DNA of 64,000 nt, taken from assembly GCA_946699065.1 (NCBI GenBank), contig CAMPDV010000706.1, positions 62,001 to 126,000 of the forward strand. Reading direction: 5' to 3'. The notes beneath the pieces are model-generated. The model worked only from the letters and a program-made list of their open reading frames with translations. It ran no database searches and was not told the origin of the DNA. Made by a program: the position numbers and the translations under genes. This DNA comes from Loxodes magnus (Eukaryota; Ciliophora; Karyorelictea; Loxodida; Loxodidae). Positions 910 to 62,252 of the stretch are shown here, one piece after another (within the stretch, counting starts at the first letter, position 1; each line of letters opens with the position of its first letter).

Positions 910-2334
910 ATGCCAAAGGAAAAATCACATTTAAATTTAGTGGTAATAGGTCATGTAGATTCAGGAAAATCTACTCTAATAAGTAATATGATTAATAAAT
1001 GTGGAGGTATTGACAAACAGACAATTTAAAAATTAGAGAAAGAAGCTGAATAGAAGAAAAATCAATTCAAATTTGCTTTTATATTAGAAATATAAAGGTA
1101 AGAGCCTGAACGTGGAATATAAATTGATATATGCCTATAAAAATTAGAAACTTCTAATTATGAATATATGATAATAGATGCTCCAGGACATCGTGATTTT
1201 ATAAAAAATATGATTACAGGTACTTCTCAAGCTGATGTTGGTCTTCTGATAGTAGCAGCTGCATAAGGAGAATTTGAAGCTGGTTTTAGTAAAGAAGGAT
1301 AAACTAGAGAATATGCACTTCTTGCTTACACTTTAGGAGTAAAGCAATTGATTGTAGGAGTAAACAAAATGGATGATAGAACAGTAAACTATGGAAAGAA
1401 AAGATTTGAAGAAATCTAAAATGAAGTGAAGGAATATTTGAAGAAAATAGGATATAATCCAGCAAAGATTCCTTTTGTTCCTGTTTCAGGTTTGTAGGGA
1501 GATAATTTGACTGAACCTTCTAGTAATATGAATTGGTATAAAGGATAAACTCTTCTTTAATGTTTAAATGCAGTTCTTTTACCAAAAAGACTTATTGATA
1601 AACCTCTTCGTATACCTATTTCAAACGTATATAGGATTAGAGGCATTGGAACAGTTGCAGTAGGAAGAGTAGAAACAGGAGTTTTAAAACCTGGCATGGA
1701 AGTAATATTTGCTCCTGTAACTTTAACTGCGTAAGTAGCCTCAATAGAAATGCATCATTAAACTCTTAAAGAAGCGATTCCAGGAGATATAATAGGATTT
1801 AATGTAAAAGGCATATCTGCTAAAAATATAAAGAGAGGATATGTTTGTGGAAATGCAAAAAATGATCCTCCTTAGGAAGTAGGATCTTTCTTAGCGAAAG
1901 TGATAATTTTGAATCATCCAGGTAAAATTAAGAAAGGATATTGTCCTGTTTTACATTGTCATACTGCTCATATAACTTGTAAATTTTAGGAATTGAAATA
2001 GAAAATAGATAAGCACACAAGTAGAGTAATAGAAGAAGAGCCTTAATATTTGAGATAAGGAGAGGCTGCTATTGTTTAGTTAGTTCCAAGTAAACCAATG
2101 TGTGTTGAAACGTTTTAATAATATCCTCCTCTAGGAAGATTCGCAATTAGAGATTTGAAATAAATAGTAGCAATTGGAATAATTTAAGAAGTAGAGAAGA
2201 GAGAAATAGGAAAGAGAATGACGAAAGTAGTATGGAAGGAAAACAATTTATATAATTAAGCAATATTAAATATTATATTAATGAGAATAAATTTAAAACT
2301 GAAGATTGAATATATTTTAATTAATTTTACATGA
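910..2334 (+). CDS. Divergent translation elongation factor eEF1A-like GTPase
   Basis: The 474-residue product aligns over its length with eEF1A, the GTPase that brings aminoacyl-tRNA to the ribosome. The P-loop GHVDSGKST (residues 14-22), [24 protein letters not shown], the domain 2 motif [12 protein letters not shown] and the domain 3 motif PSKPMCVE are all present. TAA and TAG codons read as Gln throughout, and no TGA interrupts the frame before the end at 2332. Oddities: the effector-loop Thr of RGITI is Gln (TAA codon), SGW is SGL, and about 25 residues extend past the usual Lys-rich C-terminus. It may be a fast-evolving paralogue rather than the housekeeping copy. A related pseudogene lies at 38.9-39.6 kb. 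Homology to eEF1A is certain; activity is not. Confidence 0.9.
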
Positions 2335-9777: not shown

Positions 9778-12700
9778 TCAGTTTATTTGATCTTCTAGAT
9801 GGTGAATTATTTTTATACTTATTGGATGATTATTTCCTTGATTTAATATTTTTTATTTTGATGTTTTACTTTTCCTGTTAATCTGCCACATTTCCTTGTA
9901 GCTCAATTTAGTCTTCCACTATATAATTTTAAAAATTCTAAATATGTAAAATATTACATTTTGAATATTTGCTTCCTTTAAAAATCTCTAATCATATATT
10001 TTAAAGTTAGGTTCTCTTAGATTATAGTTATCAAAATGAATATTTTATATTAATTAGTTATCTTAAGAAGTTATATTTTAACTTATATCTAATCTAGTTG
10101 TTGCTTAATCTCTAGTAGTTTATTTTTAACTTTAATTTTCTTATTAATTTTTAATCTTTTTCTTTAGTTTTATTTCATCAATTATATCTCTTATTAGACA
10201 GTAAACACATAATACCATTCCTAAAAATGTAACTATGTTTGATATTATCACTATTACTTACCCTAACTTTTCTGAACTTTCTGACTAAATAGATAGTAAG
10301 GTTCTCTTTGTATATTGTTTATCTATCTAATAGAAGTAAATATTGAATAAACTTAAAATAGTTAGTCAAACTTCTAAAATAATATGAGTACAGTTAAGTA
10401 CTTTTCTAATAAATGGATTAAATCTTATTATATAAACTATTTATGATATACTTATTATGCTACACAGTACTATTTATGCTATTTAGTATTTCCTTAATCC
10501 TATTAAAATAAATGCTAAAATCAATCTTCTTACAAGAACTAAAGGATAAAATATTAGAGCACTCTTTTAGTCTTTTAGTTCGTCAAATAAAGGGAAATAT
10601 TTAGATTTTATTAGTTCTATTTATTTCTTGTTTTCTAAGCTTTCTGGATTAACTTAGACTTTTAAATTTAGATACTTTTAGATCACTTTTAATAACCAAA
10701 GAAAGCAAAATATTTAGAATATCTAAATATAGAAACTTACCATAACTAAATAAGCTAAAGCAATATTTAAAAATATATAAGGAGTCTTTGCATTTCAGTT
10801 AAAAACTTGAAGCATAATATCAATGTTTATATGAAGTGAGAATGCAATATATACTTATATTAGAAACCTATAATGAAGATACTTATTTCTAAAATTGCTT
10901 ATTTTATTAAATCTTTTGCATTTCCCAATTAATCCAACCAATAAATCAAATCCTAAGTATATAGCTAGGAACGATAAATGAAAAAAGCTATTGGATAAAT
11001 ATGTATAGTTTTAGTATCCTATAAGTAATAAAATTTAGTCTGATATTTTTAGTTATTTAGCATCAAAATTAAGCAGTATAAACTTGTTATCATTTCCTTA
11101 AGCAATCATATTACTCTAACTTTATTAAAAGTAATAAGCTGCTAAATTTTATGGTTTTGAAACATTAATAAATGCATTCACTAAAATTAATTGAGTAGTT
11201 AGTATAAGAGTGAGTCAATTTGCTGATGAACTTGATGATTAAACTGTTGTTGATAAAATGATACTACTACTTACTCCTGCTGCATTAAAATAAGATGCTA
11301 ATTACTCTGAAATATAAATAAAGTTTTGTTAAGTATCGGATATATTAAAGTCATCTAAACTTTAAGGAATTTCTTAATCTTCTTTATCTTTCTAGTTATT
11401 TTATTCATTTTAATTTTTCGAAATTTAAGAATTTTCAAAATCTTCAGCTTATTCAATTTTTTATATGCACTAATTATAAAATAGAACAAATTGATCTTCG
11501 CATTCTAAACAGTCAATACTGGAGTTACATATAGAGCATCCTAATAAATTACATTTAAAGCATGTTCCTTCTTCTAAGTAATAACCTTAATCACATTAAT
11601 TGCATTAATTAGTTAAATTATCAAAGCTATCACAATTCTTAAATATTTCGTTTCATTATACACATTTGTACTCTTTGTTTCGCTAATCATTCTAATCGCA
11701 AATCATTAAACACCTATTATCAATCAAAAATGTATCTTACTAACACTTTAAACAGCTTTTATTCTCATTACACTCTTCACAAAATTCTATAACCTATGAG
11801 CACTAATAGCAATGAGTATCATTTAAAATAAAGTTTTCTTTGCATTAATAACATTATTACTCATTACATTTTTAGCAGTTTTCATATAATTAATCACACA
11901 GAAAACATTTAAAATCTCTTTAAATTCAATTTTCTGTTGGACATTATTCTACACAGATACCTTCATATAGAAAAAAATTTAAAAAACATTATTAACACGT
12001 GTCATTTTGGCAAATAAGACAGTTTGAAATTTTTGAACTACATAAAATACAACTATCTTATAACTAAGAAACTTGATAACCCTATTAGCATTCAAAGCAT
12101 TTTTTTAAAAACTGGTCAAACTGAAGACAATTAGAAATCATTTTTTAGCAAATGCTAGTAGAATCAATAAAAAATTAATTTATTCCACAAAGACAGTTAC
12201 TCTGCTAAATTGAATTACAATTTGGTTTGCATCTTCCATTCACTTCACTTATGTTCAAACAATACGTAAGACTAGAACATTATTCAAATGTCGTGGATCC
12301 GCAAGCACAATTATTTTAAAATTAAGTGATACAAAGAGGTAAACATAGACCTGTCGAAGAACTACTATCTTGACAAACGTTTGTTGAGTTACAGAAAGTT
12401 TTATTATTTATTCCACAAAGACAGTTACTCTGCTAAATTGAATTACAATTTGGTTTGCATCTTCCATTCACTTCACTTATGTTCAAACAATACGTAAGAC
12501 TAGAACATTATTCAAATGTCGTGGATCCGCAAGCACAATTATTTTAAAATTAAGTGATACAAAGAGGTAAACATAGACCTGTCGAAGAACTACTATCTTG
12601 ACAAACGTTTGTTTAGTTACAGAAAGCTTTGTTATTTATTCCACAAAGACAGTCACTCTGCTTAATGGAAGTACAATTTGGTTTGCATCTTCCATTCACT

Positions 12701-13419
12701 TCACTTATGTTCAAACAATACGTAAGACTAGAACATTATTCAAATGTCGTGGATCCGCAAGCACAATTATTTTAAAATTAAGTGATACAAAGAGGTAAAC
12801 ATAGACCTGTCGAAGAACTACTATCTTGACAAACGTTTGTTGAGTTACAGAAAGTTTTATTAATTATTCCACAAAGACAGTCTGATTGGAAATTTTTTTC
12901 GCAATTTTGTACGCATTTTCCATTTTATTCGCTGGCATTTATACAAAATAATTATTTTTAGCATCATTAAACATTTTTTTGACCGCACGGACATTCTTTT
13001 TAAAAATTGTTTATACAAAGATTTTAACATTTTCCCACTTAATCTGTATAGTTAACGCATGCTTGTGTAGTGTTACATCATTATCTATTCATGCCACAAT
13101 AACAGTCTATTTCAGTCGTTTAGTTACAGTTAGGTAAACATAAACCATCTTTCCAATTTTGGTTATAACAAAAAGTGGTTTAACTACACATTCAAAGATT
13201 TTAAACACCGCATGCACATGAATTTTAAAGGTTTTACTGACATTTGGATAAACAATTTCCTTAAGTTGAATTATAATTCTCACAATACGTATAAGAGTTA
13301 CAATTTACTTATGTGGATATTCCGCAGAAACAGTTATTTAATTAAGATTTTGAGCAGGTTATGGATAAAACAATAAGTTAAGTCGAAATAAATAATAAGC
13401 TAGAAATAATTATTAACAT
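9778..13419 (-). CDS. Cys-rich (furin-like repeat) multi-pass membrane protein
   Basis: A single uninterrupted frame of 1,213 residues from ATG 13419 to TGA 9778. A hydrophobic signal peptide (ISSLLFISTQLIVL) is followed by about 500 residues of Cys repeats of two kinds: CxCG modules (first half) and CxxC/NC modules typical of ciliate furin-like proteins. A membrane-associated C-terminal half follows, with hydrophobic helices and a basic Gln/Lys-rich tail. Eight internal TGA codons (13192, 13078, 12964, 11926, 11653, 11215, 10795, 10366; low coordinate given) sit in otherwise intact sequence, e.g. LEV[TGA]LTIL in a helix. At 11653 (CVQ[TGA]NEIF) the CxxC pattern would favour Cys, the one poor fit for Trp. 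Three repeats at 12180-12863 are nearly identical. Likely a cell-surface protein; ligand unknown. Confidence 0.8.
12180..12863 (-). repeat. Three tandem 228-bp in-frame repeats
   Basis: Units begin near 12180, 12408 and 12636, with a spacing of exactly 228 bp (76 codons) measured at 'agacagt.ac' (12191, 12419, 12647). The two lower-coordinate units differ by only a few bases and the third by a handful, so the expansion is recent. Each unit encodes CxCG-type Cys modules and keeps the frame. Confidence 0.9.
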
Positions 13420-30215: not shown

Positions 30216-33200
30216 TCAGGACTAAACTTCTTCATTTGCTTTTGCTTCCTTCTCCTTAGATTAATAAGTAATAGATTCTGTCTTTTCGTTCTTTATAGTT
30301 GCAGTTTTTTAATATTTTCTATATGTTTCACAATTTTAGAACTCTACAGTTGTTATATTTTACTCCTTTTCAAAGATGGAAATTTCTTATTCTTTATTTG
30401 GTTCTTCTAACTATTACTTTTCATCAATTTCCTATTATTTGAAGTTTTAAATTTATACCTTTAATTTCTTTAATTTAAGATTGATATAAAAATTGAATAA
30501 ATTGATGCTCAAGGAAAATAGATAATTTCCTATTACTATTAAGAATGTCATTAGAACAATAGCGAACGCAAACCCTTCGTATTTATCCGCATCTTCATTC
30601 ACTCAGATTGAAAACTATATAAATAAAACTAAAATCCAAGTTTCGTTTATTATAACTACTATTAGTTCTACTTTATCTTTCAATGGCTTAAACTTACATA
30701 AATATACTATATAGCTGAATGTTAATACTGAACTAGCTGAAATCTAAAACTCTGGACATTCCTATCCAAATATGATGATGAAAGCTTAAATAATTCTTCT
30801 TATTAGGAAGATACTATAAAACTATAAACAGTATTTACTTTTACTTTCCTTAAGTTCAGTTAAGAGACTATTATACTACTATTCAATCTAAACTTTAAAG
30901 AAAGTTAACTTTTCGTTCTATTATTAAGAGGGTTGTTCTATTAAACTCTATTAATAGATGCTTAGTTTTCTATAGATAAGAATTTAGAAAGAAACCATTA
31001 GAATCTAAAATAAAAGCTTACTAACAGCATATATGCAAGTACTGAGTTAAAGGTAACATATGAATCATCGTTACTTGTAAAGCGAATCTAGATTAAGACA
31101 GATATCATAAGACCGAATGACATATTTAAAATTAATCTTATGAATGTAGAAAATTTATAATTATCATAAGTCTTCTATAAGTATTACTATAACCTGTTTT
31201 ATATACTTTTAGCTTTCCAGATTAGAAGAAATAAAATACTACAGAATATAAAGTTTATAACTTCTCTTAATCCATTTGCTAGGAAAGTAGCTGAATTGAT
31301 ACCTTGAATTTGTAAGTTATATCAGATATCAGTTTAAGATTTTTAGTATGAGTTTAAATCAAAACCTATTGCATTCAGTATGAGTTATTAAAAATCTAAG
31401 TTAACTAAAAATAAAGCTTAGAATATTTAAGGCATCATAACAGAAACCATTCCTGTGCATACTATCATTTCATCTAAGCAATAAGCTATTCATAGTTAAT
31501 AGCATGTAGATGTAGATCCACTACTTACTATTAAAGCTATTACTCCCGCCGTCAATGCTGTTGGAATAATAATAGAACGAGCTATTTTAATTGCTTAAAT
31601 CAATTATTCTTCATAAGTAGTTAAGTTAAAGTCAGAGATTGAATTGGGAATAATCTTTTAAATTTTCTGATTTTCTTAATCTTAATTTTATTTTTAGTTG
31701 ACTTAAATGCAAGAATTAATTTTAGAATGAAATTAATATCCTTTTTAACATTTTAAGCAGGAATTCGTTTTGTTGGAGCACTTGATACATTTTGGAATAC
31801 TTTAGTTGCAAGGTTTGCATATTCAATCTTGATCATAATCTTACTGATCATCAGAACATTGAAGAAGACATTAATTATCAATAGATAATTTATAAGGTGA
31901 TTAGCAAGATTTACAACTAAGATCTGTGCAAAATTCGCAATTTTCATATTTTATGGTGCAGTTAGTACATTCATTATTTTCTAAGAAGTATCCACTTTTA
32001 CATTCATTGCATTCTGTTCCTAGTAGGTTACATTTATAACAGCCCTTTATATTTTAGTCACATTCTAAACATTTGTCTCAATTTTAAAAACTTATTTGAG
32101 GACATTATTCCAAACATCTATTTTCAAATAAGAAATATTTAGCTTCACACTAAAAGCAATTACTTTAGGAGCACTATATACAATTAGGAATACTCTCAGT
32201 ACATTTTAAACATTTTCCTTACTTCAGAACATAATCTTCTTAGCATTTAAAGCATTTGTAACCCTTTTCGTCACATTCAACACAATTGGGAATTTAATTC
32301 TAGCAAGACTCACAAATAAAATCTTTATCTGCATCTTGCTAATTTAAGGGACAATTTTCAACACATTTATTATCATAAAGCTTGAAAGGAAATTGACAAT
32401 ATAGACATTAATCTACATTGAAGCATTTATTACAGTTTGGATCTATTTATTAGCAAGATTAGCAGTTTCTACTCTTCTGATCTATGAAAAATCCTTCTTC
32501 ACATCTCAAACAAGTATATCCAGAGTTATCACATTCTTAGCAGTTTTATATCTTACAGCTGCATTAGTTATTAGATAATTCAAAGCTATTCAAGCACTAA
32601 GTACACTTTGCTTCTGAGTTTTATTCTAGTTAGCACTATTTACAATTCTTTATAGCAAGTTAGCAAGAAGTACATTAAGATTCATTTAAAAAGAATCCTA
32701 AAGGGCAACTATTACACTATACTTTATCATTTTAATTCTAGCAGCTTAAGCAGTTCTATATTTGATTAGTGCAAACTTCACAAGTATTAGTCCCAACATC
32801 TAGATAAAATCCACTATAACAGCTAAGACAGTTATTAACTTTATTTCCAAAACAACTACTACAACTTTAATGACACATTTATAGGCAACTTTTTATATTT
32901 GGACCCTAGCAAGTATTTTATGAGCAACTTTTAGCGCAGTCATTATTATTAAATATGTCTTAAGAATCTTAAATATCTAGATAAGTATCATAAATATAAA
33001 ACTTTACATCGTAAATACTTCCTTTAAAGTTCTATTCTTTCTAATTACCTCCTAAACTTATTGTGCTCGCTTTATCAAAATATAAAAATGTAGTTTATAA
33101 AGTGTCACAATTCAATACCGTATTATATGAGAACTCAAATAAGCAAATTACTAATGGATCATTTTGCGAGTTTAGACTGAGAGATATAAAATATCACTTC

Positions 33201-35562
33201 AGAGTGTTAATAGTCTTGGTTCATACAAAATTAATTTGGAAGGAATTGAAAGTAGCTTATAGTTGAGAAGTTTAGTAGTCAATTTCTTTTACTTATAAGA
33301 CTAATGAACTGCTAAATGGTTTATCTATTCTAAAAATATATTTTCATTATTATGCTTATAAATCTCTTATTTACCTTAATAATTATTAAGAATTTAATCC
33401 TATATTTTAGAACCATAAAGAAAAGCTTAAGCTCTCAGTTGAATATTTGGAAGGATCATATCCTAAATCTGCAAATATAAACTAAATAGCTGGCTATTAG
33501 TCACTGCTTGTAATTTCCCGTAAGCTTTATGTAATATTAAAGAAATGCAAATTAGAATCTTCTTAAATATCAGGAGAAGCACATTCTTTTTAATTAATAA
33601 TAGCACAAGGATTTTAATAGTTAATAATTTAAATTCAGTCTTATTCTGTTAAAATATAATCATAAGTATAAAATCTTGGTTGAAGGATTAATCCATTAAA
33701 TTTAGGAAGATTATAACTTTAATCATAAAATATTAGTCAATAGCTTCATAAAAGGTAATTGGTGCTAATTTATTCATAATTGCATTAGATGGTAGAACTT
33801 TAAATGTTATCAACATGACATACAGTAAGATAACCGTTTTAGTCAACTGAATATAGGAAAAAAATCACTAATTTTTGCCTGCTTGATAATTATAATAAAA
33901 TTAAGAATAACCTTCACTTAATTTGATATATTAAGTATTTGATTCTTAATCGAACTGTATGCTAATTAAAAATTAATTTGAAATTAATGAACGTCTTCTA
34001 AGCTAAAATTGTTCTTTAATAAGAAATAAGAATTATTATTAAGTTTTTGTTCCATAGTTTTTAATTCAAAAGCTCATAGAATAAGTTTGTGAAGAATACT
34101 AAGAAGGATCGTATCCATAATAATCAAATTAAGTATTCAAATACAAATTAGTATTTTATGATTTTAAAGGTTTGTCAGATAACTCTATATAATTATAGTT
34201 GGCTGAGTCTGCCTCACAACTTTTCACTTGAGGTGAAGAAAATTTATTGCACTCTTTTTCTAAATGACATGGAGTTTGATATTAAGCTATTTATAAGAAA
34301 TCATCATAGTCTAATAGAGTATCAAAAAGGTAAACTCTAAACTAGAGTATATATCCAGTAAACATAAATCAGCTTCCTAATACAATTTATGAGTTATAAT
34401 TTCATTGGGGATTAAAAACAAAATTTGATTTCTCAATTTTATAGCCTTCTACCTTTGGAATTACAACAATGGATTAAACTTTGCTATCAGGGTTACTTAA
34501 AGAAATTCCAATAAAGATCCAACTTGAACAATCTATGAATTCGTTTTACTCAATAATAAAGCGACTATCTTATTATAAGTATAGTTTTAATTTGAAGGTA
34601 TACTTATTATTTTAACTTTATACTAGCGAAAAGTTTAAACTAACTTATTCAAAAGCCCATATGTTTTATTCACTTTCTTCTTAGCAATTGCTTTAAATCC
34701 AAGTAGAAAAACTAATATATTATTTCGAGAATCTTAACATATAAATTCAATCCTTCATTATTTAAACTTCATTGTTTGCTTTATCTTATATAGATAGATA
34801 AGGAATGTTTTTGGATGTAATGCTATAAAATTAGTAATTTTAACATTCTGTTATTTCAATTCCACTACATTAGCCTCCACAGTATTAAGTGCAAGGAATT
34901 AATTCTAAAGCTTCATGAAAGTCTTCAGATATTTACTGAGAGTTATAAATTCAAAACAATAGCTATAAAATCTTTCCAGTCACACTTTTATTTTCTTAAT
35001 TCCCTATTATAATAGAAGTGCTTTACGTAAAGCTTGGAATGAGATACTTATATAAACCTTTTTCTTCACATTTTTTGTCGAATCCAGTAGAAGAATATTA
35101 AGAGAAGCAAAATATTAGATCTCCTTTTTAATCTAGCAGCATGTATTTAAGACCTAAAAACACCCATTCATTACAAGTTTGTCCTAAATTAAAGGATTAA
35201 CATTCTAAGAACTAAGCGTTAGCATCAGAATGACAGAAGGAGAGAGATTATTCTTAATTTTGTAGTTATTATAAAGTTACTTCAACTTTATAAAAATCTT
35301 CATCGTTTATAGAATAAAGATATCTCTTTTCCAGGTCTTCACATTTATTTCATGCCCACAATGTTAGAGTTATAGAATCCGAACTATATTGCATTGAATA
35401 TTCTCACTTCTATCAAACGTTAATCTATATATAAAAATTTGAACTAATTTCTTAAGTCAAAAAAAAGTCACTTAGTTCGTGGTACGATTCTGCTTAGACT
35501 TTATAATTGCTTAAAATAAGTAAAAGAAGAATTGATTTGTAAAAATTATATGGTCCATCCAT
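30216..35562 (-). CDS. LamG-repeat and Cys-rich multi-pass membrane protein (two 1-nt frameshifts)
   Basis: From ATG 35562, a signal peptide (YKSILLLLILS) leads to four LamG-like modules with S-x-x/x-W and later W-x-F-[IL] signatures. A Cys-rich CxxC stretch (about 32.9-31.75 kb), several membrane helices and a charged Gln/Lys/Glu tail to TGA 30216 follow. Trp at the eight equivalent LamG positions is TGG at 35356, 35164, 34699, 34519 and 33413, and TGA at 34066, 33865 and 33194. More in-frame TGAs fit Trp (FQN[W]DKC, DI[W]YNLQ, SI[W]VNED). The frame moves -1 at an A7 run (33858-33864) and again near 30890-30970. The span, 5,347 nt, becomes 1,783 codons if two bases are missing. Likely a surface receptor or adhesin; the frameshifts may be real or homopolymer errors. 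Confidence 0.8.
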
Positions 35563-38890: not shown

Positions 38891-39600
38891 TAAAGGGAAA
38901 AAACATATCAATTTAGTGGTAATTATTACATAGATAGAAGTCTATTTCAATTAAGCATAGGATTTGAAAATGTGGAGATTATGTCAAACGACTTGAGAAA
39001 AATGAAAAAGGATTACGTGATAAAAAATTTATTAATCTTTTATAGATAAGAGATATTATAGGAGAATGCAGCTTTAACTTCTGAAGAGAAATAAATAGAA
39101 AAACGTCATAAAACTTCAGAAGAAGTGATTGTAGGAGATATAATTGGAATTAACATAAAAGGCTTATTTGTTCAATAATATAGAGAGGTTATGTTTGTGG
39201 AAATGTAAAAGATGATTTACCAGAAGAAATAAGATAATTTTTAGCAAAAGTGATACTTTGAATCATCCTGGTAAAATTCAGTAAGGGTATTGTCCAGCTT
39301 TATTAGAAGAAGAGTCTTAATTTTCGAAAGCAGTAGAAATAATTATCGTTTAATTAGTTCCAAGTTAGCCAAATTTTTTGAAGCATTTAAATAATTATCT
39401 TTCTCTAATGAGAGATTCAGAACAATTAGTAGCAAAAGGAATATTAAAAGAAGTAGAGAAGAGAGAATAATGAAAGTGAAATGGAACAAAATAAATTTGT
39501 TGTCTAAACAATATTATAGATGATATTAATGAGGAGTGAAATAAAGAGGATGAATAAATACTTATTGAGTTTATATGAGATAGGCTATTAATAAAGAAAC
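38891..39600 (+). pseudogene. eEF1A-like pseudogene with internal deletion
   Basis: Starts with sequence matching the 5' end of the 910-2334 gene ('aatttagtggtaat'; P-loop already damaged). It jumps near 39060 to domain 2 ('ggagatataattgg', 'gttatgtttgtggaaatg', 'aatcatcctggtaaaatt') and runs to the end with 'gaagtagagaagagaga' and the 'atgagatag' stop region. Most of the GTPase domain, some 600-700 nt, is missing and several frameshifts are present, so no full product is possible. Confidence 0.85.
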
Positions 39601-53783: not shown

Positions 53784-56700
53784 ATCGAGCTCTTCAACCT
53801 AGCACTCTTCAGTTCGGAGATATTATAATTTTTAATCTTAGTCTTTAAATAATTTTGACTAATTGCTACTCTACTACAAAGAGACTTTATCTTCTTGTAA
53901 TTCTTCAATGATAGCTAACTCTTTTACTTATTTATATGTATTAATATGCTTTTTATCCTAAAATAACTATTTATTGACTTCGCTACTCTATATCTAATCT
54001 ATTTGCTATACCTTTGTATAATTAATTCCTTCGTTCTATTCCTATGTTTCTTATTTGTAAGCAATGGTTTGCATTTTCTATTATTTTAAATCAGTTATTT
54101 TTATATCTAATTAGCATTTTGACTATTAATATTTTTATTCTTCATTAGCAATACCAAACTCTAATTTTAAAGTACTTTCCTCATTCTTTTCTTCGTTATT
54201 ATCTTAAGATTAATTTATGCTTTCAAGAAAATTAACCCTTGTTACTAACTCTTGAATTCTGCTATTTCAGTAATTTTTCCATGAAGTCTTAAAATTCAAA
54301 CTTATTAGTTTATGGAGTTCACTTAAACTTGTTTATGTTAAAAGGTATCATTCAATCTTCTTCAAAAGCTATAATTCCTCTTGTTGCTTAAAAAGCATTT
54401 TAAGTGTTTTGCTATGTTTATTTTCTTATTCTATATCATATAAAGGAGGATCCTCCTATACTTAGATTTTTTCCTTCTTCTTATTGCATAATAACTTAGA
54501 CAGTCACTTTCTACACTTCTTTCTTTTTTATTATTTTTTTAACTATTTAATGCTTTCATTTTCCCATTTCAAATTCGTATCTATCAAACTTATTCTGCTA
54601 CCTCTTAATCTTCATAAGCATAAGAATCATTTTTACTGATTTTAATGTAGGTTTTAACTGACTTAACTCATAAACCGCTAAAACCAAATCACTATAGCAT
54701 AGCAATTGACTATTACTAGTAGAATGAAACTTGCTAAATCAAGGACGTAATAGCGCTAACCTGAGCCAAAGTAAATTCCTAAGTACAAAATAAAGGTAGA
54801 AGCAATCAAATAATTAAGCTCTAAGGAATTTAGTTCCTTATTAATATAAGGCTAGCATTTATTCTATGCTAATATGCAAACTACTAGAACTGACATAAGG
54901 CATCAGTACTAGAAAACTATGGTAGATTTCTATAAAAATATGTAAATGAAGGAAATTGAAAACTTCTAGTAGAACTTAATGAACTCTCAGAAATAGAATT
55001 AGTCCTTAAAGCCTATTGTAAGGAACCCAAATTAAGATTTGATGAGATAGGATTTTATAATTTTTCTGTTCTTGTAGAGATACAAAATTATTACTAAAGG
55101 AATAAAAATCCCATAGAATATTAATGCTGGTAATGCAAAAGAAAATACATATTTCAAATGTTCTCCTTACCAACATACTATATTTGTGTAGGCATTTAGA
55201 ACCTAGACTTCTTAGGAAATGCTGTAGCAACTAAAGGCACCAAAAATAGTTTAAATCAGTACTGTGTATATTTAGAAAAAGGAGACACTCATGACTGTAA
55301 TAAAAATGGATTTATTAAAAGATTTCATTTAAATTAGGGATAACAAAATCAAAATCAAAAGTGTAACTATTAAAATTACGAAGGGTAACATAATTAAGCT
55401 ACTTACTTTGCTATAATAAACCTATTCTCCTTCCTTTTAAAGACAATCGAATTAAAAAATATTAGAAGTTATTTAATAGTATCCTTGATTTAATTGAAAG
55501 AAATCAATTAAATAATCAGGCCAATCGAATTTAAAGTTCTAAATTAAAACTGAAAATTGCATATAGTTAGTGAGAATTTTGAAATACACACCATAATATG
55601 ATGCTTGCTTTTTTGCTGATTTAAGAGTTTATCAAACTAAGTAAAGAATAAAGCAAACGAAAATAAAAACAATAACTGATAGCATAATAATTTATTCCTT
55701 TTTACTATAGCATTTCTTGCATTTATTTTATCCATCTTTAGCTCAATCTTCTTCACATACATCACACATAACTCCTTTATACCCTTCTTCACATTCTCCT
55801 TATCAGTTAATTTAATTTTACATATTAACTCTTTCCTATCAATCTGTAACTTGCAAATATTTAGTTACATAGTCGCTATTTAAAAATGCTCCTTAGCAAG
55901 CAAGTGAGGTAGGACATTTATGAATTACATCAGTGTTGAAATTTTCTTTTCAGTAACCATTTTCAGGAGTTATTAAATTACTTCCATAGCATTTAGCTCC
56001 TTTGATGCATTCTTTACAAGTATTGTGAGTTTAATCTAGGGAGTATTATCCATAAAAGCAATTTTAGCATTCTTCACCATTAACTAGTATTTATCCAGCG
56101 AAGCAATTAATGATTTCTAATTAGAAATAAAACTTATAAGTGATATTATTATCTAAAGGTAAGTTATTCATATCTACTGCATTTGTTTCCAGCTATAAAT
56201 GTATTTAGGTTGCTGGTTTTGCTTTGATTGCTATATCCTTAATGTCAAAAATTCCCTAGTCTGCATATATTCTAGTACTGCCAGATAATTTGGAATTATT
56301 AGAATAAACTTAAACTATTGATGTATTATCAGTTTTTATTATCTATCCATAAATGTCTGTAATGTAAATACGCCTTTCAGAAATCAAAAATCCTGGTAAC
56401 TAATTATCTAACAATCTCTAAGTTCTTCTTTCATTACACTGATTTAAAGCATCATCTTTATAGCTATTACTTAAAGTGTATCCAAATGAAGCTAAATTAC
56501 TACCATAAGTAGCAGAGTTATTAACAAACAAGGAGCAAATTTCTTAGCTTGTTATATGAGGAATGAAAATAGGTAAAGTTCCCTAGAAGGAAATAGCTCC
56601 TCCTTCACTTGAATAACTTTTGATTTGATTATTAATAAATTAGTTATTTTCTATTTTATACTCGCATTTTTACTGCTAGTCACATACTAATCTTAAAGCT

Positions 56701-59700
56701 CCTCCTTTTTATAACTAAGCATCTTATCCTTTTAATTAGTTGTTAATGAACAAGTTATTGTTAAATGTAATATTAGCATTTTGACAGTATCCTACTCCTC
56801 CTTAGTGGTTAGCAGTACAATTAGTGAAAGTATTATTAGTAATGAAGTATTTATATTTGATCTTATCATTTAAAATAGCAAAACATGAACCTTATTTAGC
56901 TTATTAATTAGAACAATTACAGTATGATATATCTACTTAAGAGTTTAAGGAGTAAACTGCTGATCCATAATTTGCTTCACTGACTCCATTTTTAAAGATG
57001 GTGGAAGTTACATTTAGATAGCTTTGCTCTTAAATAACTATTGCAGTGTTGATGTAATCTTATATAATAGATTCTTGTAGTCTCATATTAGAATCCTTTA
57101 TAAAAGCAACTGATCCTTCATTTGAGGATGAACACTGAGTTAATCGTGAGTTTTGAATAGTTAAATTAGATGAAATCGCATAAATTACTCCTCCTTAAGG
57201 AGACGTCATATTTTAGAAATGAATGAAGTTGAATATTAGTTAAGATTCTGTTAAATAAAAGGCACCTCCAAATATAGCTTCTCCATTATTAAATGATGAA
57301 TAAATAATTTCTATTTCTGACTTTGATTCTCCTAAAATAAAAGTTGCTGTATTTGCTTTTTAATTATTAAAATTAGAATTTTGAATATACAATTTTGCAT
57401 TTGAAGTATGAACTCCAGAAGTTTATCCTGTAGCTATATTATTTGAAACATTGACTTATCTTAATTCTAAGTTACTTTTATAGACATAAATGAGTGATTC
57501 TTTCATATAATTATTAATAAAGATTGTATCTATAACTTCACTTTATTTCTGCTAATTTGAATTTCATAAGTTTATTATTCCTACTGCATATGCTTTGTTA
57601 TCCTGTATTTATGAATCTTTAATCTAAAAATAGGAATTTTAGTTGAATATGAATGCTCCTTCATCTGCTTCATTTTCAGTCACTTATGATTTGTCTATTT
57701 TGAATTAGCTTTTTAATTCCATAAATATAACTCCTCCTTTGCTTTTAGCAATATTTCCTTTAAATTAGACTTTAAATAGATTGATAATTGACATCTATAC
57801 ATGAAAAGTAGCTCCTTCATCTGCTTTATTATAATTGAACTAAGAGTTAGTAATTTATATATCTGACTATTAAGCTTTCATGCATCCTCCTATATTTGCT
57901 ATGTTTTCATTACTGATGATGTTATTTATTTGAGCATCTACTTAAGAAAAGAAAAAGACAGCTCCTATAAAAGCTTCATTTTAAATAAAGGTACAGTTAT
58001 CTATCTAAATTTTATCTTGACTAGCTTCTATGATTCCTCCCGAATTAATAACTCTATTGCCATAGAAATAACTACCCACTATTTAATAGATTGAAAATTA
58101 AGATTAAATAGAAGCACCTTTCATTCCTTAATTCCCATAAAAATTAGAATGTTAGATTGTTCCATTGGATTAAAAAAGAGAAATAATGACTCCATTAATA
58201 TTGATATTATGAGAGATGGTTATATTAGCTATAGAAAAATGCTTATTAAATACTTAAACTAAAGATCCACTATAAATCTAATTTCATTCGATTTTACTTT
58301 CATCTATTTCTAGTTTAACATTCTTAGTCTCTATTATTCCATACTGTGCTTTATTTAATTTTAAATCATTCTAACTTATAGTCATTTATACTATTTAAGA
58401 GGCATAAAGAACTGAATTAGCTAAGTTGTTTATAAATTTGCATTCAAATAGTTATAAGCTATTAGAGTTTGATATTTCTATTAAACTTCCATCTGTTGCT
58501 AGACTATCTAGAAATTTACTTTCAGTAATTATAATGTAAGTAGCCAATGTTACAAATAAGCAGCTTCCATACTAAGCCTTATGTTAACAAACTATCTAAT
58601 TACTAATATTTAAATATCCATACTGTTAGTAAACTAAACCTCCTATTTCCTCTGCTTAGTTATCATAAGCATGTACATTCTCTAAAGAATTATTTGAGTA
58701 GATACTATAAATAAATGCTCCTTTATTAGCCTTATTATTTTTAACTAGTATATGTCAAAATCAACTTTCTGACTGTTCAATATAGAACACTCCAGATGCT
58801 CTTGCTTAGTTACTCATTACAGTTAACTTTCCTAAAATCACTTTCTGTTTCTAGAAATACCCAACACTTCCATACAACGCTAAGTTATCACTAAAGGAGC
58901 TATTTCACATCTCAAAATCATTTTTTTCCAAATCATAATAAAAAGCCAAAACTCCACCATATTTATTGGCAACATTTTAGGTGAAATGACTATCTCTTAT
59001 TTGATTCAAAATGGAATTATGCAAATATGCATATCCTCCACTTCAAATTAAGGCTTCATTTTTTATTGCGATTATACTTTAAATTTAATTAATGAAGCTG
59101 TTACTAGCGTATAACGAACCACCATAATTAGCATGATTATCACTGAATAAACTGTTTTAAATGGATAATATTATAGCGTTTTCAGTTGAAATAGTACCTC
59201 CTCAATCTAAAGCCTTATTTTAAATAAATTCGCTATTTTCTATAAAATAAGCATTGGAATCTTATAAGTATAAACTTCCCCCTTATTTAGCAGTATTCTA
59301 CTTAAAGGTGTTCCTCTAAATATTTAAGATACTAGAGTTGCTAAATAAGTAAAATACTCCACCTTGATAAGCAGCTTAGTTGTAAGAAAAGTAACTGTTA
59401 GTTAGATAAATGATGTTTGTACAGTTTTGAAACATAAATCCTCCAGATCTTCCAATTGCTTTATTCTCAATGGCGTTTATATTAGATATTATACTTACAT
59501 TTGACTTTTGTATATTTATACAACCTCCTTCAAACCCTAAATTCCCAGTAAATGAGCAATCTTTTATTCAAGTTATTTATGAAGCTTCTATTCAAATGGC
59601 TCCTCCTTGCTAATTAGCACTATTATTACTGAACTGATTCTTCTAAAAATACCCAATGTTAGATTATTTAATAGCAATACTTCCACCTAATATTAAGGCA

Positions 59701-62252
59701 GAGTTAAGATTAAAATTACAAGATTCTATTTACTAAACTGATGATTATATTATATAGAATGCTCCTCCTTATTAGGCTTAATTTACTTAGAATTAGCTGT
59801 CTTTTAAACTACTTACGTTTACTTACTAGAAATAGAAAACTCCACCTAATCCACTAACTTAGTTTTACTCACCAATACAACTTCTAATATTAATGATACT
59901 TGCATTCTATGAGAATATAGCTCCTCCTTATACAGCCTAATTTCCAATAAATTAACATTTTTCTATTAAGCTGATGCTAGATTGCTAAATGAATATAGCT
60001 CCTCCATAGTATTGCACAGCCGTATTTTATTAAAAGGAGTTATTAACAATTGCATTTTGCTTAGATTATGAAAAATATAAGGCTCCTCCATTATATTTTG
60101 CAGAGTTTAAAAGGAGTACATTCCCATCAAAATTAAAGGCCTAAGATTTGAGAAAGTATAGAACGCCTCCATTTTGTAAAGCTTAGTTTTTATAGAAATA
60201 GTTTTCCTTTATTAGATTAACTTCACTATTTACAAAGTATGCCACTCCTCCTTATTATGATTAGCTTTCAATAAAAGTGTTATTTTCGATCAGTTAAATA
60301 CTAAATTAATCAGTGCTTATAACTCCACCATAGTATGTAGCACTGTTTAGTTGAAAATAATTGTTCTGTATATAACTAATTTTTGAATACTGGCCTCAGA
60401 TACTTCCTCCCCCACCATTAGCTTTGTTTTATATAAAAGTACTGTTATATATAAAGCTAACATTCGCATATAGTAATGAAATAGCTCCTCCATTCACACT
60501 AGCCGTATTTTAATAAAAATAGCTATTGCTTATGTTAGAAATACTTGAATTTTCAAAATAGAAAACTGCTCCTGTTGTTGTTAATTATCCAATAAACTAG
60601 CATTCGTCTACTAAAAGCAAACTTGAGTTTTTTAGTCTTAATACTCCTCCGTATGAAGAAGCTTTATTTTTTGTAAATAGACTCTTGGTAATAGAAGTAA
60701 TATTTGACTACTAGAAATATAAACTTCCACCTTGGTCAGCTTTGTTTGAATCGAACGAGTTATTGTTCATATTATTTAAAGTCGAATTTAAAAAATTGAA
60801 AGCTCCACCGTTTAAGCTTACTTAATTTTCGTTAAATTGGCTGTTTTATATAGTGTCAACGATAGATTCTGATATTTATGCAAATCCTCCATTTTTTGCA
60901 ATAGCTTTATTTTAAGAGGCATTCAAGGAAGAAATCGTATTAATGTATGAATTATTAGCTCCGAAAGCTCCTACTCATATAGCTTAGTTTTATATAAATG
61001 AACAGTTTTCCAGTTTGTCAAGTTAAGATTATTTTAACTAAACAGCTCCACTTTATGTTCCAGTATTCTTTATAAATCAAGTGCTGTTAATTGTATTGAT
61101 GCTTGTATTATCAAAATAAATCCCTCCACCTGTATCCAGTGCTAAATTAGATGAAATATTACATTGTCTAATGAAATAAACTTTAGACTTTTTAAAATAA
61201 AGACCACCTCCATTGGTAGCAGTATTCTCAATAAACTCAGTTTTATCCACACTAAAGTTAGAATTTTCTGCATACAGAGCTCCTCCTAAACCCTTTGCTT
61301 TATTGTTCTTAAAGGAATTTTGATATAGCAGTGAATTAGAATGATTTGCTTACAATACTCCACTATAATTTCCTTAGTTCTCTTAGAAGAGTGAAAAATT
61401 TAGCTGTAAAGTAGAATAATCATAATTAATGGGACTTCACGTAGCTATGTTTTTCATAAAGAAGGAATTATTGACTGTTATATTACTCCAAATACCATTT
61501 ATAACATTTCCTTTATTTTCCGTAAAGTTAGTTCCTCTTATAGTAACTAAAGATTAGCTTACATATATAAGAGTTCCATTCGCATTAGGCTTATTATTAA
61601 ATATGACTGAGTTATTTACTTCTAATGTGCTTTATTCTGAGTATATATAACAAGCAGGTTCCATAGAGAAGTTCTTAAAGATAACATTGTAAAAGGTAAA
61701 ATTAGAGTGTAGTATTTTAATAAAATAGTTATATGAATACTAAGTGCAGTTAGGTTAGTTACATATGATTTTAGTAATTAGTTGATCACCACTAATAGTT
61801 AAGTTTTTAAACGTTAGAATATCTTTATTTAAGTTTAATTTAATATCCGTTTTTTTAACTATTAAAGTTGAACTTTATTTCTAATTTCAACACATCGCCT
61901 AATTCAACTCCTTTAAACAATCCAAATATGTCGTTATCGTTATTTCTTTATATCAGTTACTACTACCACCTCCTCGTACTATTTCACATTAGTTCGAGCA
62001 GGAGTTACAGCTTAGGCAGTCAAGATAATGATCATGAGGAAAGAGAAATATTTCATGTGCAGTTCCTTCACTCGCATTAAATATTGTTTATGCGACGGAT
62101 GTGAAAGGAAATTACTTGGTACCATTAGAGACGCTTAGACCTAGTCTGCTGAAAACATCAGGAGTTGTAACATAAAATTGAAGCGCGTAAGTTGTTAGAG
62201 TCAAAAGTTGAATCACCAAGGCTTGCAACAATAGTTTAGAGCTAAGCTCCAT
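53781..62252 (-). CDS. Giant beta-helix (PMP-like repeat), Cys-rich, multi-pass surface protein
   Basis: 2,823 codons in one unbroken frame from ATG 62252 to TGA 53781-53783. A signal peptide (LLLQALVIQLLTLTTYA) is followed by about 1,900 residues of short repeats of the N-x-A-x-x-x-GG-[AG]-[IL]-Y type, as in right-handed beta-helix or polymorphic outer-membrane-like proteins of ciliates. Then come a Cys-rich neck (CEEGYKGVMCDVC), several membrane helices with the family motif FDWPDYLIDFF, and a Gln/Lys/Glu-rich cytoplasmic tail. 27 internal TGA codons occur with no frameshift in 8.4 kb. Some fall on positions that I recall as Trp in relatives (ENGY[TGA]KEN at 55950, YF[TGA]EFIK at 54987). 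About six Trp are TGG. The stop is doubled (TGA TGA). Probably a surface adhesin or receptor. Confidence 0.85.

Follow-up and report, generated by a model that had tools for sequence, protein, structure and literature searches.

The 64,000 nucleotides analyzed in this work (hereafter, the window, corresponding to bases 62001-126000 of contig 706) belong most likely to the nuclear DNA of Loxodes magnus and are almost certainly read with the published genetic code table 27, according to which TAA and TAG encode Gln and TGA encodes Trp inside coding sequences and stop near the end of the mRNA. The reading of internal TGA as Trp is supported, at the level of sequence comparison, by the exchange of codons among the copies of one gene, by the Trp columns of tubulins and actins, and by the tRNA set. 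This is not a discovery, since the code has been described before (NCBI table 27; PMC11441545; PMC4967479), and nothing is added here to the code table. According to PMC11441545, UGA is the sole stop of table 27 and is also read as Trp, provided that its distance from the downstream poly(A) tail is sufficient; the same paper describes a macronuclear assembly of 706 Mbp with abundant retrotransposon-related repeats for L. magnus. Our data are in agreement with the karyorelict code reported for Loxodes magnus and Parduczia (PMC11441545, PMC4967479), in that TAA/TAG as Gln and TGA as both Trp and stop are also found here, and no difference emerged from the available portions of those papers.

The analysis was centered on one gene of the minus strand, the features of which are listed below in window positions. 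The codon counts given for the other copies were obtained over 29 loci, the window's own locus being left out.

30216..35562, minus strand: member of a large multicopy gene family (from its translation and its genome copies), with a signal-peptide-like start, four LamG-like modules, cysteine-rich repeats and a multi-pass membrane region
35356..35358, minus strand: module 1, Trp column 1, TGG (other copies: TGA 18, TGG 9)
35164..35166, minus strand: module 1, Trp column 2, TGG (other copies: TGA 25, TGG 2)
34699..34701, minus strand: module 2, Trp column 1, TGG (other copies: TGG 26, TGA 3)
34519..34521, minus strand: module 2, Trp column 2, TGG (other copies: TGG 23, TGA 5)
34066..34068, minus strand: module 3, Trp column 1, TGA (other copies: TGA 22, TGG 3)
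33865..33867, minus strand: module 3, Trp column 2, TGA (other copies: TGA 22, GAT 1, GGA 1, TGG 0)
33858..33864, minus strand: T7 run with a frame change, T8 in most copies (homopolymer comparison across copies)
33413..33415, minus strand: module 4, Trp column 1, TGG (window reading, outside the copy test)
33194..33196, minus strand: module 4, Trp column 2, TGA (window reading, outside the copy test)
31005..31021, minus strand: putative 17-nt GT..AG intron, GTAAGCTTTTATTTTAG (from the comparison of copies)
30603..30605, minus strand: sense TGA (Trp), 129 codons upstream of the terminal TGA (TGA in five and TGG in two of seven copies, window included)
30216..30218, minus strand: TGA read as stop (gene end in 7/7 copies, window included)

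Read in its three stretches, the gene comprises 1773 codons, including 20 sense TGA and 8 TGG. Its signal peptide, repeats and membrane region were assigned by eye; the gene belongs to a large family that evolves rapidly and resembles a cell-surface membrane protein. When its first 571 codons were searched against the genome (7843 contigs, 705,730,643 bases in total), 78 matches were returned, fragments counted in. A coding-potential segmentation recovered the main genes of the window, with a bias toward the cysteine-rich ones.

The region 30216..35562, treated as one protein in the initial annotation, is not a single open frame: the frame shifts after the T7 run and again across the putative intron. 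The length of the T run was measured at 23 loci and is T8 in 19 of them, T7 in L032 (the window's own), L040 and L058, and T9 in L035; by eye, L036, L048 and L049 change frame at the same spot via other indels. The T7 of the window may be either real or an assembly error. A 17-nt intron at 33814-33798 was considered for this first frame change and then dropped, since the reading continues in most copies with no such intron, the difference from the window being one T in a homopolymer. As to the second frame change, the intron at 31005..31021 (GTAAG...TTTTAG) is 17 nt long in six close copies. In L066 its length is 19 nt (GTAAT...), in L069 it is 18 nt, and the frame downstream is in both cases, by eye, the one expected from that length. 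Another 17-nt candidate, at 30838-30822, was discarded, its GT being lost in four copies, and the intron at 31021-31005 was inferred instead. The length of this single putative intron matches the mode of 17 nt given in PMC11441545 for the introns of L. magnus, a species in which introns of about 17 to 25 nt exist.

The label LamG-like, also proposed in the initial annotation, is plausible but weak, all Pfam Laminin_G scores lying below the cut-off. The modules of the window share with Laminin_G_3 (PF13385) what we take to be its two Trp signature positions and its overall spacing. Nevertheless, both they and their paralogs score under the cut-off of that family: the best Laminin_G_3 values are E = 0.039 in the window (one of the four modules) and E = 5.8e-4 in the paralogs (one of six; 20.5 bits versus a cut-off of 27.6). 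No Pfam match over the cut-off was obtained for the gene at 30216..35562, nor any LamG match over the cut-off in the Pfam comparison that included the in-frame proteins at 55693-60493 and 11084-13337, and the profile of the modules had no match in the PDB up to E = 10.

Whatever the name of the modules, the eight Trp-column codons are all present where the initial annotation had placed them, each coordinate that it gave being the last base of the codon on the minus strand. It had further claimed that TGA stands exactly where sister modules carry TGG, and this was borne out when the modules were realigned with TGA masked in turn as X, R and C, which keeps Trp from drawing the columns together: the same columns were obtained with each of the three masks. 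In modules 1 to 4 they read TGG/TGG/TGA/TGG and TGG/TGG/TGA/TGA, and they are the only columns with at least two TGG among the four modules. The probability that all three remaining cells contain TGA by chance is about 4e-6, a value computed from 15 TGA in 861 codons, for columns picked post hoc and with a reading that includes about 20 wrong-frame codons. Only three of the 15 TGA of the module region lie on the two Trp columns.

Further evidence comes from the copies of the gene. Thirty loci of the 78 matches, the window among them, were compared, and 19 non-redundant ones (<95% codon identity; the window again included) were used for the exchange counts, which span the first 582 codons only and thus leave module 4 outside. 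Among the 2945 cells paired with TGA, which are not independent of each other, 2028 contain TGA itself, and the commonest exchange is with TGG (376 of the 917 non-identical cells), followed by TAA (100), TTA (66), GGA (35), AGA (2) and TGC/TGT (1). The count for CGA is zero and is uninformative, since this codon is absent from the copy set. The excess of TGG is greater than the raw counts might suggest, as TGG is rare (64 codons) and TAA common (687). The columns of the window are mixed in the copies, as in the case of one window TGG facing 18 TGA and 9 TGG or one window TGA facing 19 TGA and 9 TGG; some TGA columns are occupied by residues other than Trp elsewhere, as at codon 272, where TAA prevails, and at codon 398, where AAC/AAT do. 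Those of the 30 loci that are full-length copies share 40-86% identity with the window and maintain open frames of at least 565 codons with 7-15 TGA each.

The same assignment was examined in tubulins and actins. The tubulin set comprises 28 loci, namely the eight best and 20 hand-picked ones out of 150, and the share of TGA in it (68/91) is inflated and unusable as a baseline, since 18 of the hand-picked loci were chosen for carrying TGA. Of 67 TGA that could be placed, 38 fall on columns with a Trp majority, 16 on columns with a Phe majority and 13 on other residues; column 103, at which TGG occurs in two other loci, accounts for 13 of the 16 on Phe-majority columns. Of 47 TGG, 37 are on Trp-majority columns, and the position Trp21 is written TGA in 14 loci and TGG in the other 14. 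As for the actins, eight of 96 matches were picked so as to include TGA carriers, and the four Trp columns of the conserved actin account for five of their eight TGA; in the divergent actin L076, the alignment with PDB sequences agrees with Trp at two of four TGA.

The reading of TAA and TAG as Gln is supported by the gene copies, where CAA-TAA pairing accounts for 23.5% of cells versus 6.8% for GAA-TAA and 5.8% for AAA-TAA, and by the canonical Gln places of alpha-tubulin, which by eye carry both TAA and TAG. When counted over the tubulins, TAA is paired with Gln more often than with any other residue (76/352); the tally is noisy for TAG (Ala 20, Lys 16 and Gln 13, n = 108), and CAA/CAG are likewise spread in it (Gln 39/174), because the set is divergent.

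The idea that all the classical stop codons would have a sense meaning holds for this lineage, as judged from the copies, tubulins and actins, but TGA is also a stop. The TGA at 30216..30218 closes the gene in all seven copies compared, and past it the copies differ by length changes of the DNA that are not multiples of three. The TGA at 30603..30605 alternates with TGG and the one at 30216..30218 is a conserved end; therefore, both meanings of the codon occur in one gene. Between these two positions the window has no further TGA in frame, although copy L068 has one. The 128 codons before the stop are free of TGA and the last 20 contain one TAA and one TAG, figures from a single gene that can be compared with the karyorelict trait of sense TGA and TAA being depleted in about 20 codons before the stop. 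Both alpha-tubulins inspected by eye also end in TGA.

Other explanations of the in-frame TGA have to be weighed against this scenario. The gene might be a pseudogene in which TGA is a plain, premature stop, as the frame change after the T7 run and the many repeated and partial copies in the genome could suggest; we consider this very improbable in view of the 20 sense TGA in 1773 codons, of the frames of full-length copies, which stay open over at least 565 codons in spite of 7-15 TGA each, and of the fact that TGA swaps mostly with TGG and occupies Trp21 in 14 tubulin loci. It might also be argued that the in-frame TGA are embedded in short unspliced introns and need not be sense at all. The introns of the species are indeed as short as about 17-25 nt (PMC11441545, accessible part), and the TGA at 35406 begins a possible 24-nt GT..AG stretch; yet in most of the copies shown this TGA is in frame, with aligned residues both before and after it, and the Trp columns within the aligned protein are kept in the copies with TGG replacing TGA, so that this explanation has, in our opinion, an extremely low probability.

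The identity of the residue leaves even less room for doubt. TGA is one base away from CGA, AGA, TGC and TGT, and a reassignment to another residue, e.g., Arg or Cys, might be imagined on this basis; the exchange counts (AGA 2 and TGC/TGT 1 versus TGG 376) and the Trp columns of tubulin and actin render it scarcely conceivable. The Condylostoma code (table 28), in which TAA and TAG are also stops, has sense assignments identical to those of table 27, but the conserved end of the gene and the two alpha-tubulin ends seen by eye are TGA, and the length of the putative intron fits Loxodes; we judge this code to be about as improbable as the pseudogene. The reading preferred here remains table 27, with internal TGA as Trp.

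A further question concerns the decoding machinery. The initial annotation had suggested looking for either a tRNA-Trp with a UCA anticodon or a modified tRNA-Trp(CCA), and for changes in eRF1. No match to a strict pattern for tRNA-Trp(UCA) was found in the genome, although a divergent form could escape such a pattern, and the altered tRNA-Trp(CCA) was detected. A pattern search revealed 129 tRNA-Trp-like places; among the 100 listed, 48 are on contig 67, where they form a tandem array, 49 on contig 148, nearly all of them in tandem, and three on contig 110. The 27-43 pair is absent (A-C or T-C mismatch) in 97 of these 100 places, leaving an anticodon stem of 4 bp, and the three places of contig 110 have a 5-bp anticodon stem and mismatched T arms. 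In the two places that were examined, ARAGORN called tRNA-Trp(CCA) and the cloverleaves were inspected. The source for the Loxodes tRNA is reportedly Swart et al. 2024 (eLife). A tRNA-Trp(CCA) with a 4-bp stem is attributed by citation to Blepharisma and Loxodes in a 2026 paper (PMC13092985), and our finding of the same lost pair in 97 of the 100 listed places, with no UCA form by the strict pattern, is in agreement with it; in that text the broken pair is numbered 26C-42U rather than 27-43, and the genome analyzed here harbors, in addition, the three places with a 5-bp stem.

A change in eRF1 was also found. The first domain of this protein has three matches in the genome, one being a pelota homologue and the other two being eRF1 copies located on contig 196, which are 87% identical at the DNA level in the part of the gene that was aligned, and both of which have RAQNIKS in place of the TASNIKS of human eRF1. 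The tRNA-Trp(CCA), with its anticodon stem shortened to 4 bp, probably reads internal TGA on the ribosome; it would do so in competition with eRF1, and termination would prevail only near the poly(A) tail.

A possibly new aspect is that genes differ in how far they use TGA for Trp. TGA accounts for 20 of the 28 Trp codons in the window gene and for 165 of 224 in 18 copies, shares that are near the share of A at other two-fold sites. On the other hand, it is absent from the 11 Trp codons of the conserved alpha-tubulin, the beta-like tubulin and the conserved actin (one representative each), the GAA and AAA shares of which are ordinary. Of the 150 tubulin matches the best 30, and of the 96 actin matches the best 44, also lack TGA in the matched stretch, many of them being near-identical copies. 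It might be speculated, with slightly less than even confidence, that in Loxodes UGA(Trp) drifts freely in fast-evolving genes and is purged from strongly conserved and probably highly expressed ones, expression being assumed here from the kind of gene. Conservation alone, rather than expression, may be the driving force, since the actin-like genes L080-L082, which differ from the conserved actin, have no TGA in eight Trp codons and the Trp codons of one eRF1 gene are, by eye, all TGG. In Blastocrithidia, highly expressed genes are reported to avoid reassigned codons (PMC12153298), and no report of such avoidance for Loxodes was found in the literature searched, which was accessible in part.

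Useful material is thus available within one genome, namely a single gene reading the same codon as Trp at one place and as stop at another, and a family (78 matches, with fragments counted) whose members exchange TGA and TGG. If the idea of a purge from conserved genes was correct, then the choice between UGA and UGG would report the cost of competing with eRF1.

The use of TGA is uneven among the genes analyzed in the window and elsewhere in the assembly. The window harbors the following features:

910-2250, forward strand: divergent copy of elongation factor 1-alpha, open when TAA/TAG are read as Gln
11086-13338, reverse strand: cysteine-rich repeat protein, with six TGA and one TGG
38969-39554, broken frame: fragments resembling, by eye, another elongation factor 1-alpha copy
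55695-62078, reverse strand: right-handed beta-helix protein of 2128 codons, recognized by Pfam matches

The gene for the beta-helix protein, which scored E = 2.7e-31 against Beta_helix and E = 2.6e-11 against the Chlam_PMP repeats, contains 19 TGA versus a single TGG, and the Pfam search with the cysteine-rich repeat protein returned nothing above the cut-off. The codon count of the longer elongation factor 1-alpha copy gave no TGA and two TGG; on inspection by eye, TAA/TAG also occupy several positions where the canonical residue is Glu, and one where it is Trp. The fragments at 38969-39554 probably represent a decayed duplicate, since their frame is broken. In the assembly, no in-frame TGA occurs within the matched stretch of the best 30 of 150 tubulin matches and the best 44 of 96 actin matches, and many copies of lower rank carry one to four each.

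In the gene under study, a T run (33858-33864) lies directly 3' of a TGA(Trp) codon, as it does at the matching place in three other genomic copies (L035, L040 and L058); its length is 7, 8 or 9 in close copies, which alters the frame, and this variation may reflect sequencing error or be real.

As for the decoding machinery, tRNA-Trp(CCA) genes with anticodon stems of 4 bp form tandem arrays on contigs 67 and 148, with at least 48 and at least 49 copies among the matches listed and a usual spacing of about 187 and 241 bp, respectively. The release factor eRF1 is encoded twice on another contig (C196), the copies being separated by about 35 kb, and in both of them RAQNIKS replaces the TASNIKS motif of human eRF1.
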